IMG/VR virus record: IMGVR_UViG_3300021602_000003
Location: 62,001-126,000 of that record
Source: a virus
Reading direction: 5' to 3' (one strand)
DNA length: 64,000 nucleotides
Shown here: piece after piece, positions 34,608 through 62,002 of the stretch
Numbering within the stretch: position 1 is the first letter of the stretch
Layout: every line of letters begins with the position of its first letter
Position numbers and translations under genes: made by a program
Notes under the pieces: model-generated
Told to the model about the DNA's origin: nothing
The model's database searches: none
The model's input: the letters and a program-made list of their open reading frames with translations, nothing else

Positions 34608-36032
34608 ATGAAACTCTCAAAAAATATTATTTTAAATTCTGACTCGTATAAATATAGTCAGTTCAATCAGTACCCTAAAAATACCGAATATGTGTATTCT
34701 TACATTGAATCGCGTGGCGGTCAGTGGAACAAAACAGTCTTTTTCGGATTGCAGGCATTCATCAAGGAGTATTTGACTACTCCGATCACCAAGGAAGATA
34801 TCGATGTTGCTGAAGCCATTATCACTGCTCACGGTGAACCGTTTTATCGGGAAGGGTGGGAATATATTCTTACGGCGCACGAAGGTCGTCTTCCAGTCGT
34901 CATTAAAGCGGCCCCAGAAGGTTGTCTCATACCAACTAAGAACGTATTAGCCACAATTGAAAACACTGACCCGAAGTGCGGGTGGCTAACATCGTTTCTT
35001 GAGACTGCAATTCTTCGCGCAATTTGGTATCCGACTACTGTAGCAACAAATAGTTACGAATCGAAGAAAATTATACTCAACGCATTGGAGAAAACAGGTG
35101 ACCCCACTCTTATTGATTTTAAGCTACATGATTTTGGTGCTCGTGGTGTATCGAGCATGGAAAGTGCTGGTCTCGGGGCAGCAGCTCACCTCATTAATTT
35201 TATGGGCACTGATACTATTACTGGTCTACTCTACGCTCGGGAGTATTATGGTGCTGACATGGCAGGATTCAGTATCCCCGCAATGGAACACTCCACTGTT
35301 ACAAGTTGGGGACGCGAAGGTGAAGTAGATTCATATCGCAACATGTTGAAAACACATGGTAAGAAAGGTTCACCAATTGCGTTTGTTTCAGACTCGTACG
35401 ATATTTTTAATGCCTGCAAGCTGTGGGGCACTGAGTTGAAACAAGATGTAATTGATTCCGGTGCAGTAGTTGTAGTTCGCCCAGATTCGGGTGACCCGAG
35501 TGATGTGGTTGTCAAGTGCCTCTACATTTTAGAAAAATATTATGGTTCTGTGAAGAACGACAAGGGATTCCGTGTATTAAACAATGTCCGTGTTATCCAA
35601 GGTGATGGTATTGATCATGCTACAATTCGCAGCATTTTGTTCTGTATGGAAATTGCTGGATTCAGTGCAGACAATGTGGCATTCGGCCAAGGTGGTGCTC
35701 TGCTACAGCAAGTCAACCGTGACACCCTGAAGTTCGCCATGAAGTGTTCCGCAATCGGTATCAAAGAATGGTCGGAAAAATACGAACAAAATATTACAGT
35801 TTGGCGCGATGTGTTCAAGGATCCGATCACCGATCACGGCAAGGTCTCTAAGAAGGGTCGCGTGACTCTTTGGGAAAGTGGGGGCGAGTATGCTTCTGCC
35901 ATTGATGAACCACGCGGTTGGACTGACAGAGGGGTTGGCCCGTGGGTCGAAGCTCTTTCTGAAGTCTATCGTGACGGTGCCTTAATAAAAGAAATTACTT
36001 TTGACGAAGTTCGCGCTAACGCCAGGAGATAA
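34608..36032 (+). CDS. nadV: Nicotinamide phosphoribosyltransferase (NAMPT/NadV)
   Basis: Joins nicotinamide to PRPP to make NMN. The 474-residue protein has the family blocks SDSYKYSQFNQYP, YSYIESRGG, DFGARGVSSMESAGLG, MAGFSIPAMEHSTV and VVVRPDSGDP, which line the active site. Length matches human and bacterial NAMPT (about 490). Codon choice (CTC, CGC, GGT) is unlike the TTA/AGA-rich surroundings, which suggests acquisition. With the NMNAT-Nudix gene it forms a complete nicotinamide-to-NAD route, like that reported in phages that restore NAD after depletion by host defences. Confidence 0.95.
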   Translation: MKLSKNIILNSDSYKYSQFNQYPKNTEYVYSYIESRGGQWNKTVFFGLQAFIKEYLTTPITKEDIDVAEAIITAHGEPFYREGWEYILTAHEGRLPVVIKAAPEGCLIPTKNVLATIENTDPKCGWLTSFLETAILRAIWYPTTVATNSYESKKIILNALEKTGDPTLIDFKLHDFGARGVSSMESAGLGAAAHLINFMGTDTITGLLYAREYYGADMAGFSIPAMEHSTVTSWGREGEVDSYRNMLKTHGKKGSPIAFVSDSYDIFNACKLWGTELKQDVIDSGAVVVVRPDSGDPSDVVVKCLYILEKYYGSVKNDKGFRVLNNVRVIQGDGIDHATIRSILFCMEIAGFSADNVAFGQGGALLQQVNRDTLKFAMKCSAIGIKEWSEKYEQNITVWRDVFKDPITDHGKVSKKGRVTLWESGGEYASAIDEPRGWTDRGVGPWVEALSEVYRDGALIKEITFDEVRANARR

Positions 36033-41669: not shown

Positions 41670-42737
41670 ATGATATTTGCACTATTAACTTTATTCTCTG
41701 CTTTATCGCTTGCAGCGGTAGCTGGCTGGTTCTCTATAGTAGGTATTATGTCTATTTATGCAGGTGCGCCAATGCACGCCGCATTTGTAATGGGTGTAGT
41801 TTTAGAGTTCGCTAAATTAGTTACAGTAAGTTGGATATATAGGAATTGGCCCGAAGCTAAATGGAAATTGCGAGGCCCCCTTATATATTCCATCGCTGCA
41901 CTAATGCTAATAACAAGCATTTCCGTATTTGGCTTTTTAACGAAAAGCCATTTAGAACAAGGTGCTGCTACCATAGATAATTCTGCTAAGGTAGAAAGAT
42001 TAGACCAGCAGATAGCAAGAGAAAAATCTGTTATAGCGGATGATGAAAAAGTTATCACACAGTTAGATACAACAGTTAATTCTTATCTAGGTAAAGATAA
42101 TGCAGATAGGGCGGTAGTAATACGCCGTTCACAAGCTTCGCAGCGTAAACAATTGCGCGGAGATATAGAATCTGCTCACAAAAAGATAGATGGATATAGT
42201 GACGAGAAGTTTAAATTACAATCCGAAGTTAGAGCACTTAAATTAGAAGTTGGCCCCATTAGGTATATTGCCGAGTTATTTTATAGTAGCAGTGGCGATG
42301 AAACTAAAAATATTGAAGCGGCAGTAAAATTATTTACATTACTGATTGTATCGACATTAGATCCTTTAGCAGTTATACTATTAATTGCCGCTAACCATAC
42401 CTTACTGCGACTCCAAAATGAGAAAAGTAAAAAGAAAGAAACGGATCCGGTTGATGGGCCGCAAATTACTATCCCCGATGACAAAGAGCAAGTTGAAGAC
42501 TCTCCGCATATCGAAGAAAGCAGGAGCAGCGAACCCGACCAGCGTGTGGATTTTTCTGGAATACCTCTTCATGCAGTCGAAGAAGAAGCCAAGATACATG
42601 ATTCAGTACCTGAAGAAATTGTGGAATTATTAGATAATAGAATAGAAAAATCAGACGAAGTTAAACATACTCCAAAAAAGTATCCCACCGCGTTGAGTTG
42701 GTTGGCAGAATTTAGAAAGTCAAAAAATAATGGATAA
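41670..42737 (+). CDS. Polytopic membrane protein with coiled coil
   Basis: The 355-residue protein has hydrophobic segments near 1-25, 30-50, 70-92 and 215-245. A long charged coiled coil lies between the last two (KVERLDQQIAREKSVIADDEK onward), and a Glu-rich cytoplasmic-type tail follows. It may act in the inner membrane, for example in superinfection exclusion or lysis timing, but nothing in the sequence proves it. It overlaps clpX by eight bases. Confidence 0.6.
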   Translation: MIFALLTLFSALSLAAVAGWFSIVGIMSIYAGAPMHAAFVMGVVLEFAKLVTVSWIYRNWPEAKWKLRGPLIYSIAALMLITSISVFGFLTKSHLEQGAATIDNSAKVERLDQQIAREKSVIADDEKVITQLDTTVNSYLGKDNADRAVVIRRSQASQRKQLRGDIESAHKKIDGYSDEKFKLQSEVRALKLEVGPIRYIAELFYSSSGDETKNIEAAVKLFTLLIVSTLDPLAVILLIAANHTLLRLQNEKSKKKETDPVDGPQITIPDDKEQVEDSPHIEESRSSEPDQRVDFSGIPLHAVEEEAKIHDSVPEEIVELLDNRIEKSDEVKHTPKKYPTALSWLAEFRKSKNNG

Positions 42738-43965
42738 TATCGAAAATAAAATAATTAGGAAGATCGTCAATTGTTCTTATTGTGGAAAGGGGAGACACGA
42801 AGTAGAACAAATGGTAGAAGGACCGGAGTTCGGTGGAAAGATTATTTATATATGCAACGAATGCGTAGATGTTACATATAATACAATACATACCGAAGAA
42901 GTAGATGTTATAAAGAAGAAAAAAGAAAAAATATTAATTCCTGAAGAAATTAAAAAATTCTTGGATGAATATATTATAGGTCAAGATAATGCCAAGATTG
43001 CTATATCTGTGGCTGTCTATAATCATTATAAACGAATCAATAATAAATCTAAGACAGAATTAGAAAAATCCAATCTACTAATGATTGGTGAATCGGGATG
43101 CGGGAAGACACTTCTTGTAAAAACAGTAGCCAAATTATTCGACTTACCTTGCGTTATAGCAGATGCCACAACATTAACCGAAGCAGGATACGTAGGTGAG
43201 GATGTTCAAAATTTAATAAGCCTCCTTATACAAAACGCCGGGGATGATGTAGACAGGGCTCGTACAGGCATTATATTCATAGACGAAATAGATAAAAAGA
43301 GTCGTAAGAGCGAATCTGCTGTAACTGGACGAGATGTATCCGGCGAAGGCGTGCAACAGGCATTGTTAAAATTAATAGAAGGCTCAGTTATAAAGATAGA
43401 AGATGGGTATGACGAACCTATCGATTTCGATACGAAAGATATATTGTTTGTATGTAGCGGAGCATTTGTAGGGTTAGACGAAGTTGTTCGAAAGAATAGA
43501 TCCAAGACAGGAATAGGTATCGGTGCAAACATAAGTACAAGATCATCTTTTTCTGAAACAATTAAAGATATACGATCCGATGACCTAATTAAATATGGCC
43601 TTATTCCTGAATTTGTAGGCAGATGTCCTGTTACTGTTGTTTTTGATGATCTTACCGCAGATATATTGGTTAAGATATTGAAAGAGCCTAAGAACAGTAT
43701 AGTTGAACAATTTAAGGCGTTATTCAAATACGAAGGGGTTTCTTTAGACTTCGATGATAAATACCTACAGAATGTAGCTGATAATTCTTTGAAGCAAAAG
43801 ATAGGTGCACGTGGGTTACGAGCAATAATGGAGAAGGATCTTCAGGCTACACAATTTGTACTTCCGAAATTAGCAAAAAACGGCGTCAACAAAATATTTG
43901 TAGATGCGAATGGAACAATTAAACATGTATACAAGGCAGCAAAAAGAGCAAAAAATGAGCAGTAA
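42730..43965 (+). CDS. clpX: ClpX-type AAA+ unfoldase
   Basis: ATP-driven unfoldase that feeds proteins to ClpP. The N-terminal zinc domain has Cys15, Cys18, Cys42 and Cys45. The AAA+ core has Walker A GESGCGKT (120-127), pore loop GYVG (153-156), Walker B IIFIDEID (181-188) and the GARGLR sensor-2 block. Length 411 against 424 in E. coli. The ClpP-docking tripeptide IGF appears as IGI (262-264), which may tune docking to the phage ClpP encoded at 53708. It overlaps the bS21 gene by 11 bases. Confidence 0.93.
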   Translation: MDNIENKIIRKIVNCSYCGKGRHEVEQMVEGPEFGGKIIYICNECVDVTYNTIHTEEVDVIKKKKEKILIPEEIKKFLDEYIIGQDNAKIAISVAVYNHYKRINNKSKTELEKSNLLMIGESGCGKTLLVKTVAKLFDLPCVIADATTLTEAGYVGEDVQNLISLLIQNAGDDVDRARTGIIFIDEIDKKSRKSESAVTGRDVSGEGVQQALLKLIEGSVIKIEDGYDEPIDFDTKDILFVCSGAFVGLDEVVRKNRSKTGIGIGANISTRSSFSETIKDIRSDDLIKYGLIPEFVGRCPVTVVFDDLTADILVKILKEPKNSIVEQFKALFKYEGVSLDFDDKYLQNVADNSLKQKIGARGLRAIMEKDLQATQFVLPKLAKNGVNKIFVDANGTIKHVYKAAKRAKNEQ

Positions 43966-44215
43966 ATATAAAGACAGCAAGAGACACAGAGGTATGTTTG
44001 TAGAAGTTAGGAACGACGACTTTGGACGAGCATTAAGGACTTTCTCTAAGAAAGTTCAAGATTCGGGATTAATGCAAGTCCTTAAAGAAAATATGTCTTA
44101 TGAAAAACCTGCGGTCTTAAGACAGCGAATGAAAAAACAAGCTCGTAAGCGTTGGGAAAGAACTGTAGAAGAAATGATAACAAACGGTCATTGGCATAAA
44201 GACAAAAACTATTAA
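43955..44215 (+). CDS. rpsU: Ribosomal protein bS21-like
   Basis: The 86-residue protein matches bS21: a VEVRNDDFGRALRTF segment, a SYEKP motif and a basic QRMKKQARKRWERTVE helix. bS21 sits near the mRNA exit site of the 30S subunit, and phage-encoded copies are known from aquatic phages, where they are thought to bias translation initiation. The ATG at 43955 overlaps the end of clpX. A phage bS21 would fit this window's many short-leader and non-ATG starts, which is inference. Confidence 0.8.
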   Translation: MSSKYKDSKRHRGMFVEVRNDDFGRALRTFSKKVQDSGLMQVLKENMSYEKPAVLRQRMKKQARKRWERTVEEMITNGHWHKDKNY

Positions 44216-44227
44216 TTAGTATATAAT

Positions 44228-44341
44228 GTCAGTGAGGTAAATAATTTTGCAAGATGCCCATAATGGGGTTTTGTAAATTAGCAGTATGGTACTGCAACGT
44301 GTTTTGATATAGCACGATAAACTTGCTTTAAAGGAGTAATT
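44228..44341 (+). promoter_or_regulatory. ROSE-type RNA thermometer in the hsp20 leader
   Basis: Between the bS21 and hsp20 genes are several small hairpins: GCAGTA/TACTGC at 44281-44295, CGTG/CACG at 44298-44316, and a final one pairing ACTTGCT (44321-44327) with AGGAGT (44332-44337) around a TTAA loop. The last hides the ribosome site and leaves one G unpaired, as in the TTGCT/AGGAG pairing of ROSE elements upstream of bacterial ibp genes. TATAAT at 44222-44227 may be the -10, though no good -35 was seen. Confidence 0.65.
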
Positions 44342-44752
44342 ATGTCAAGAAATGATTTCACACGGCTATTCGATCAATTAGATTCTCTTACTGTTGGCTT
44401 TGGTCCAGTGTTTAGAGACTTCCAGGTTCCTACAAATAACTATCCTCCGCACAACATTGTTAAAATTTCTGACAATGAATTTTATCTTGAATTAGCAGTA
44501 GCTGGATTTAAGAAGGATGAAATGAAGATGGAAGAACACCAGGGTCTGTTAACAATTACTGGAGACAAGAATGTCGATCCAGATTCGGCCTACCAGTATA
44601 GAGGTATTGCAGGTCGTTCATTCTCGAAGAGCTTCCGTATCGCTGAATATTTTGAAGTAAATGCAGCATCTATGGAAGATGGCATCTTAACAGTTAACTT
44701 TGTTAAGAATGCACCAGAAGAAGCCAAACCTAAGTTGATTGCAATCAAATAA
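44342..44752 (+). CDS. Small heat-shock protein Hsp20 (IbpA-like)
   Basis: ATP-independent holdase. The 136-residue protein has the alpha-crystallin domain: YPPHNIVKISDNEFYLELAVAGFKKDEM, an LLTITGDK strand, and DGILTVNF with the family's GxLxxxx motif. The end (PKLIAIK) resembles the C-terminal I-x-I anchor. Its expression is probably temperature-controlled by the leader. It could protect virion proteins during heat stress and hand clients to the phage Clp system. Confidence 0.92.
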   Translation: MSRNDFTRLFDQLDSLTVGFGPVFRDFQVPTNNYPPHNIVKISDNEFYLELAVAGFKKDEMKMEEHQGLLTITGDKNVDPDSAYQYRGIAGRSFSKSFRIAEYFEVNAASMEDGILTVNFVKNAPEEAKPKLIAIK

Positions 44753-44787: not shown

Positions 44788-44805
44788 TATATTACATATT
44801 TGGGG
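44771..44805 (+). promoter_or_regulatory. 15-bp hairpin covering the clpS ribosome site
   Basis: The arm at 44771-44785 pairs fully (two G-U pairs) with 44791-44805 around a five-base loop. The right arm ends in GGGG, the probable ribosome site of clpS (ATG at 44812). Transcripts reading through from hsp20 would hide the site. Transcripts from the clpS promoter start near 44794 and lack the left arm. Confidence 0.65.
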
Positions 44806-44811
44806 TCACAT

Positions 44812-45117
44812 ATGACAGAAACAGACGTTATTGAAAAAATCGAGGAATCTACCGATATAAAGATTCCTAAGATGTACAAAGTGTTATTGCATAATGACAA
44901 TACCACTACGGCGGATTTTGTTGTTGCTGTCCTTCTACGTATCTTTCATAGAACGTTAGAAGATTCTATGCTTGTAACACAAGAAGTTCATGAGAATGGT
45001 ATAGGTATTGCCGGCTCGCCCTACACACACGAAGTGGCTAATGAGAAGGTTGTAGAAACTACTAGTTTCTCCAGATTAAATAATTTTCCTCTAGTAACCA
45101 CATTAGAAGAAATTTAA
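44812..45117 (+). CDS. clpS: ClpS-like N-end rule adaptor
   Basis: The 101-residue protein has the ClpS core: KMYKVLLHNDNTTTADFVVAV, then LRIFHRTLEDSM and a VHENGIGIAGSPYTHEVANEKV segment. The HNDNTT block corresponds to the site that binds N-terminal residues. ClpS normally delivers substrates to ClpAP; no ClpA is seen here, so it may use host ClpA or work with the phage ClpX. The start is the ATG at 44812; the frame from 44800 starts inside the hairpin. Confidence 0.85.
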   Translation: MTETDVIEKIEESTDIKIPKMYKVLLHNDNTTTADFVVAVLLRIFHRTLEDSMLVTQEVHENGIGIAGSPYTHEVANEKVVETTSFSRLNNFPLVTTLEEI

Positions 45118-61296: not shown

Positions 61297-62002
61297 AAAA
61301 GGACGCCATCTTATCAAAAGTCATATGACGTTGGAATATGACTTTACAGGTATTAGGATACGAGATAGTGATCTAATACCTGTAGACTGGAAATTAACTA
61401 TTGATCTTGTTGCTACCGGAAAAAAAGGTAAGGCAAAAGAACTCGTAGAATATGACGCAAGCATAACGTATCAAAAGATTTATTTTTGGTTAGATACGAA
61501 TTTACCAAATATTGTAGTAGTGAATGTAAATAATGAAGACGATCTGTATATTGCTAATTTATCGAGCAATATAATGATGTATTGCCCAGATATACCTAAC
61601 GACGATATGCTTATACAGTTGTTACATTCTAAGATATCGGCATTAGCATTTCCTAATTTAATGGTGGGAGAGATACATTTAAAAGCAAGTGATACAGCAC
61701 TCCAATATACATACGATTGCACAGACGGTAATTATATACTTCCTATGACAACATCTGAATACTATGCAGAAGGCACTACACGCGATAAGATGCCATGGTG
61801 GATAAGAGATGACGGGTTTTGTTTTGAATTCGTAAGACCGTTAGATAATAAATTAACAGACGAAGAACTATTCAAGGATATAGTTGATCCAATGAGCGAG
61901 TTTCATCGTATTGTGACAGAAGTAGCAGAAATACCTATGAGCATACTAAATGAGCCTGCTAGAATTGTACAGATAGAAAAATGGAAACCAAAGAAAGTTT
62001 AA
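61289..62002 (+). CDS. Conserved hypothetical protein
   Basis: Unknown; up to 237 residues. The start may be 61289 or the ATG at 61325 (MTLEYDFTG). Segments KMPWWIRDDGFCFEFVRPL and DPMSEFHRIV are conserved-looking. It overlaps the Pol III alpha-like gene by 22 bases, which hints at a functional link. Confidence 0.6.
   Translation: MIKKGRHLIKSHMTLEYDFTGIRIRDSDLIPVDWKLTIDLVATGKKGKAKELVEYDASITYQKIYFWLDTNLPNIVVVNVNNEDDLYIANLSSNIMMYCPDIPNDDMLIQLLHSKISALAFPNLMVGEIHLKASDTALQYTYDCTDGNYILPMTTSEYYAEGTTRDKMPWWIRDDGFCFEFVRPLDNKLTDEELFKDIVDPMSEFHRIVTEVAEIPMSILNEPARIVQIEKWKPKKV

Follow-up and report, generated by a model that had tools for sequence, protein, structure and literature searches.

The question raised by this locus is how a phage controls the translation of its own small heat-shock gene. 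The analyzed stretch (the window) comprises 64,000 nucleotides (nt), positions 62,001 to 126,000, of the IMG/VR virus record IMGVR_UViG_3300021602_000003. This record, 166,256 bases in length, is a fragment of a T4-like phage genome, and profile searches identified genes for a T4-type large terminase, a UvsX-like recombinase, and Hsp20 in the window. The open reading frame (ORF) at 44342–44752 of the plus strand encodes an IbpA-like small heat-shock protein according to both PF00011 (55.4 bits) and PHROG 432 (E 4e-32), in agreement with the first-pass annotation, which had placed a phage hsp20 gene here and had proposed a ROSE-type RNA thermometer at 44228–44341. The hsp20 leader is the intergenic stretch 44216–44341. 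Our analysis indicates that it is probably a ROSE-like translational control element, and most likely an RNA thermometer.

The leader (44228–44350) had a predicted folding energy of −32.2 kcal/mol vs. −22.6 ± 2.8 kcal/mol in dinucleotide shuffles (z −3.4). Four hairpins were found within about 92 nt, the 3′-most of them containing the Shine–Dalgarno (SD) sequence, which is the layout of ROSE elements (two to four hairpins over 60 to more than 100 nt). Hairpin I (44246–44277, plus strand), with the letters UUUGCAAGAU-G-CCC..GGG-GUUUUGUAAA, has a U44255·G44268 pair, a bulged G44256, and a CCC/GGG inner stem, and corresponds to the first ROSE_3 hairpin. It is followed on the same strand by two inserted hairpins: II (44281–44295, GCAGTA-TGG-TACTGC with a UGG loop), missing from some relatives, and III (44298–44316), predicted by folding and present only in a part of the clade (the window, L002, L003, L005, L006, and L008). 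Both inserted hairpins had been listed at these positions in the first-pass annotation, while hairpin I, the most conserved of all, had been omitted. The SD-sequestering hairpin (44321–44337, plus strand) consists, as originally read, of ACTTGCT (44321–44327), a TTAA loop (44328–44331), and AGGAGT (44332–44337), with G44325 unpaired; at the RNA level the anti-SD arm ACUU(G)CU pairs with AGGAGU around the bulged G, and this hairpin is backed by the relatives, by covariation, and by a match of the covariance model R1 described below. The SD sequence AGGAG of hsp20 (44332–44336, plus strand) lies 5 bases ahead of the ATG at 44342. Its imperfect pairing with UUGCU (44323–44327), leaving a single bulged G, corresponds to the U(U/C)GCU anti-SD of ROSE elements. 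The pattern CTTGCT..AGGAG occurs in three copies in the window vs. 0.13 expected, the leader copy being the one at the hsp20 SD position. The mRNA can fold so that its first hairpin is stable and its last one weak, the latter pairing CUUGC(U) with the SD sequence AGGAG around one bulged G.

Conservation of this architecture was analyzed in the leaders of 18 related phages, the Hsp20 proteins of which are 51–84% identical to that of the window. The leader is retained in all of them though the upstream gene is often different. All 18 begin with [GA]TAAATA, followed by hairpin I, zero to two inserted hairpins, ACU[UC]GCU...GGAGU, and ATG; the ACUYGCU anti-SD is thus invariably present. Whole-leader MAFFT alignments shift the SD sequence and the 3′ arm by 1–2 bases; therefore, pairs were counted on motif-anchored arms and on a model-fitted alignment. 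For hairpin I, 149 of 162 cells were paired vs. 130.5 when the 3′ arms were shuffled (maximum of 146 in 20,000 shuffles), and for the outer four pairs of hairpin II all 40 cells of 10 stems were paired vs. a shuffled mean of 30.4; the shuffles ignore relatedness, so the corresponding p-values are not to be taken literally. Compensatory exchanges are directly visible in the sequences (GCAG/CUGC, GCGU/ACGC, GUGG/CCAC, and GUAU/AUAC). As expected from the first-pass proposal, pairing is kept in close relatives, with compensatory changes.

A wider set of 125 distinct hsp20 leaders was picked by protein similarity alone. The anti-SD CU[UC][GA]C was found ahead of the SD sequence in 118 of them vs. 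97 of 1034 other SD-preceded ORFs of the same DNA, many of the latter being dnaK; most of the seven remaining hsp20 leaders had close variants of it (e.g., UCGCUU or UUUGCUU). In 91 diverse leaders, 564 of 637 cells of hairpin I were paired vs. 347 after shuffling (maximum of 379 in 2000 shuffles), a count which takes the best of a few registers per sequence and somewhat favours the observed value. The outermost pair of the SD hairpin was U–A in 96, A–U in 32, and C–G in 20 of 200 leaders, i.e., 148 were paired vs. a shuffled mean of 94.5 and a maximum of 113; the next pair outward gave no covariation signal in these leaders. The covariation of the outermost pair sets the register, in which one base is bulged: G in 162 leaders and A in 38. 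A common variant of the anti-SD, UCUUACUUUAUAAGGAGA, with A as the bulged base, was observed in both hsp20 and dnaK leaders (L014, L018, L024, L036, L052, L062, and others).

The covariance model R1 was built from seven leaders, none of which belongs to the clade of the window. At E ≤ 1 it produced 72 matches in 199 kb, every one of them in sense orientation at an hsp20 leader. Its best match in the whole 166-kb record was 44298–44339 (19.7 bits, E 0.02) and the second-best was 44249–44291 (12.4 bits, weak alone); these are the two halves of the window leader with the inserted hairpins between them. In a control of 589 kb of viral DNA, picked because it contains the anti-SD pattern by chance, the maximum score was 16.9 bits. 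When 65 distinct leaders were aligned by fitting to the model, which biases the alignment towards the structure, 94.5% of cells were paired vs. 72.3% after shuffling, the covariation score was 0.499 vs. 0.139 (at most 0.094 for slid structures), and both sides had changed in each of the nine hairpin I pairs. Among 16 annotated phage hsp20 leaders read directly (those of cyanophages, pelagiphages, and one Methylophilales, one Agrobacterium, and one Pseudomonas phage), nearly all had the two-hairpin plan. A loose DNA pattern, ACTTGCTTN{0,8}GGAGTA, was also tried and discarded, its matches lying mostly inside genes. AT-rich leaders often pair with the SD sequence, and the predicted fold of the window is not unique, as would be the case for fortuitous pairing of U-rich sequence near AGGAG under no selection; covariation in three hairpins already refutes this explanation and, together with the specificity of R1, leaves it scarcely any probability. 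On this comparative evidence, both hairpins are shown to be selected as RNA structure across many phages.

The genes that follow the element bear on what the structure is for. Viral contigs were scanned with SD-sequestering patterns blind to the gene, and the counts given here refer to the matches listed and are not abundances. Matches located before a gene mostly preceded chaperone genes. Of about 142 contexts of CTTGCTTA..AAGGAG, 116 lay before hsp20 and several more before dnaK; CTTACTTTATAAGGAG was located before hsp20 in 42 cases, before dnaK in about 41, and before groES in 2. Both sets of counts include loci retrieved by other searches. R1 scored up to 46 bits on dnaK leaders and up to 25.6 bits on two contigs with the gene order dnaK-groES-groEL-hsp20 (L241 and L295), where three successive elements precede dnaK, groES-groEL, and hsp20, respectively. 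On these contigs, Pfam searches revealed HSP70 and Cpn60 beside hsp20, a heme oxygenase, and a 3′-5′ exonuclease domain, and GroES was identified from its N-terminus alone. A ROSE-like leader precedes dnaK in L416, L334, L061, L323, L339, L209, L241, and about 40 more viral contigs. The element was also observed before short non-chaperone ORFs at L327:2807–2860(−), with 28.4 bits, and at L407:3626–3662(−), with 24.9 bits; the product of the L327 ORF looks phasin-like.

This distribution argues against a role of the hairpins restricted to the tuning or timing of translation or to transcript protection (by constitutive attenuation, 5′-end stability, or a RegA-type site), with no sensing of temperature or aggregation: a general device for stability or timing is expected on many other genes, and the ROSE_3-like layout with its bulged G speaks against it as well. 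The presence of regA immediately upstream of hsp20 in several cyanophages, the extreme 5′ position that hairpin I would have in a late transcript, and the shallow computed temperature dependence are in its favour; on balance we regard it as improbable. We consider the chances evenly divided that T4-like and other tailed phages carry a heat-shock regulon of their own, in which the hsp20, dnaK, and groES mRNAs would stand behind ROSE-like hairpin pairs and their translation would be gated by temperature, and possibly by aggregation via Hsp20, without the host sigma-32. Neither dnaK nor groEL was found in a search of the whole 166-kb record, and this proposal therefore rests on other contigs. If it is true, ROSE-type elements extend beyond the small heat-shock genes of bacteria, and phages are a major reservoir of RNA thermometers.

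With the element acting as a thermometer, the last hairpin would bar ribosomes from hsp20 at normal temperature, and heat would melt it and switch on synthesis of the phage chaperone; the first hairpin would remain folded, shield the 5′ end, and prevent mispairing of the sensor hairpin. In Pseudomonas, the two-hairpin form is a proven thermometer: its second hairpin alone melts, and perfected SD pairing abolishes induction (PMC3669281). The isolated SD hairpin of the window was computed to melt near 41 °C in the ROSE register or near 55 °C in the alternative one, and its low energies indicate marginal stability, as expected of a sensor.

Several results weigh against the leader being a ROSE-type thermometer. 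Comparison with the ROSE covariance models, suggested in the first-pass annotation, gave no match for the window at any E-value tried, an outcome that the annotation itself had named as refuting: ROSE_3 (RF02523) did not match it at the gathering score of 43 or at E ≤ 10, ROSE_2 (RF01832) did not match it, and a search with ROSE (RF00435) at E ≤ 10 was negative throughout the 166-kb record. The ten nearest relatives of the window likewise had no Rfam ROSE match at E ≤ 10. Among cultured phages, ROSE_3 did match leaders in the expected position, with 34.1 bits for Melnitz-3 (E 3e-4 over all 4227 families), 29.2 for MED4-213, 28.0 for Atu_ph07, 26.8 for C48C1, and 24.9 for S-SM2; every score is under the gathering score of 43. 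At 37 °C, ViennaRNA preferred in the window a register pairing UUGCUUU with GGAGUAA (−2.7 kcal/mol) over the ROSE register (−0.5 kcal/mol). In the full leader, the computed unpaired fraction of AGGAG rose only from 0.25 at 20 °C to 0.37 at 42 °C and 0.54 at 60 °C, no more steeply than for other genes. Finally, sharp heat shock may be rare for aquatic phages.

The absence of a ROSE match in the window and its nearest relatives led us to name the element ROSE-like and to assign it to none of the three Rfam families. A ROSE-like nature is well supported by the architecture, the bulged-G anti-SD, covariation, the strong link to hsp20, dnaK, and groES, and the ROSE_3 matches of related cultured phages below the gathering score, but membership in an Rfam ROSE family is not. 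Across the wider family, covariation favours the ROSE register, and the outer pairs of the alternative register are lost in relatives such as L461–L463, in which ACU/AGU is kept. Bona fide ROSE_2 and ROSE_3 controls also opened only slightly in the same ViennaRNA scan, and the scan was therefore used as evidence neither way. Given the preferred alternative register and the gradual opening, temperature control is inferred here.

The protein itself may take part in control. E. coli IbpA represses its own mRNA via the 5′ untranslated region (UTR), for which R93, Y34, and the cationic residues 97 and 98 are needed, and R93 is largely dispensable for chaperoning (PMC10474464). The Hsp20 of the window keeps the equivalents of Y34 and R93 and a Lys at position 97, while position 98 is Ser; its corresponding motifs are GIAGRSF..K and NYPPHN, the Tyr being invariant in the clade. 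Arg was found at the place of R93 in 232 of 252 leader-bearing Hsp20s. These kept Tyr, Arg, and Lys residues and the frequency of the Arg make a combined sensor of temperature and aggregation plausible: free phage Hsp20 may bind the leader and repress itself like E. coli IbpA, in which case aggregated protein could open the leader as well. As judged from the protein sequences, autoregulation is a serious candidate for a partner mechanism to the thermometer. That the leader is mainly an autoregulation operator, to which Hsp20 would bind in its own 5′ UTR until titrated by aggregates, with temperature acting only indirectly, draws on the same E. coli precedent, shared motifs, and conserved Arg, but appears unlikely to us. 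The Arg possibly reflects mere descent from proteobacterial IbpA, K98 is replaced by Ser in the window protein, and the element also stands before dnaK and groES, where self-binding cannot explain it (Hsp20 acting in trans could); moreover, autoregulation in E. coli supplements the thermometer and does not replace it.

Upstream of the RNA structure, a T4-late-promoter-like box, GGTAAATA (GATAAATA in relatives), was found at 44236–44243 of the plus strand, its TAAATA being invariant in the 18 related leaders; GATAAATAA occurs 11 times in the window vs. 2.4 expected. The transcript would start at about hairpin I, as set by this box, and the first ~18 bases of the interval 44228–44341 are probably promoter and not RNA. 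A sigma-70-like match, AAGACA-17-TATAAT (44199–44227, plus strand; 10/12 consensus), is weak, with four such sites in the region vs. 4.8 expected. The ATG in the loop of hairpin II opens an 8-codon ORF (MVLQRVLI, 44286–44312) which ends before the SD hairpin, and similar short ORFs occur in some relatives. A conserved upstream ORF starting from this loop was rejected, the ATG being lost and the frame not kept in several relatives. A terminator function of hairpin II was set aside (one terminator-like site vs. 0.6 expected).

Upstream of hsp20 are genes for a ClpX-like (42730–43965) and a ribosomal S21-like (43904–44215) protein, and a ClpS-like gene (about 44800–45117) lies downstream; together with hsp20 they form a possible phage proteostasis cluster. 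A nicotinamide phosphoribosyltransferase gene (NAD salvage) was observed at 34608–36032 of the window. Among contigs of bacterial genomes, the nearest hsp20 (78% identity) comes from L533 (CAIOMN010000054.1), a 3.9-kb contig binned from a metagenome as Methylococcaceae and probably phage DNA; this match hints at a methanotroph as a possible host of the phage. No match to pmoC, known from methanotroph phages, was found in this genome by a search run without a positive control.

No paper on phage hsp20 thermometers was found in the open-licence literature, and prior reports elsewhere are possible; the leader is one case of a large, apparently undescribed phage element, known in kind (ROSE-like) but with a new setting and a new breadth. 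About three temperature-sensing RNAs of phages, no more, were reported before, while the element described here precedes nearly every phage hsp20 examined, ranging over cyanophages, pelagiphages, Methylophilales and Agrobacterium phages, and uncultured phages, and is also found before dnaK and groES. The hsp20 gene is a cyanophage core gene with an unsettled purpose, the candidates being a scaffold role in the capsid and protection from heat (PMC7674155). A switch on hsp20 gated by temperature or aggregation would make this purpose testable and bears on infection under ocean and lake warming.

ROSE elements have been described as invariably accompanying small heat-shock genes of bacteria (PMC4166951). 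The phage leaders resemble ROSE_3 of Pseudomonas ibpA in having two hairpins ahead of a small heat-shock gene, each with one bulged G, in AUGCC/GGGU of the first and U(U/C)GCU/AGGAG of the second. They differ from it by the one or two hairpins inserted between the halves in the clade of the window, by a shorter and weaker SD hairpin, by their occurrence before dnaK and groES, and by the bulged-A form (UUACU) common in phages. With RF00435 of alpha-proteobacteria and RF01832 of enterobacterial ibpA they share a leader of multiple hairpins, an SD sequence in the 3′-most one, and the U(U/C)GCU anti-SD; the presence of several upstream hairpins is shared by the window. Two phage records marked 'UNVERIFIED' contain full elements: L442 (OQ572409.1) ROSE_3 at 69 bits with a Pseudomonas-like ibpA, and L446 (MG065686.1) ROSE_2 at 100 bits with an E. 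coli-like ibpA. Both stretches are probably host DNA, and the host-DNA-like one of L446 is the sole ROSE_2 match for phages. The known phage thermometers, those of lambda cIII, SPbeta blyA (fourU), and the sigma-70 gene of gut Caudoviricetes (fourU) (PMC10586365, PMC11182007), are likewise temperature-linked mRNA leaders; they have other structures and genes, none acts on a chaperone, and none was described as widespread. The lambda cIII structure closes with heat (PMC4166951). The Synechocystis hsp17-type thermometer (PMC4166951) also sequesters the SD sequence of a small heat-shock gene, but in a single hairpin, whereas cyanophage leaders follow the two-hairpin, ROSE_3-like plan.
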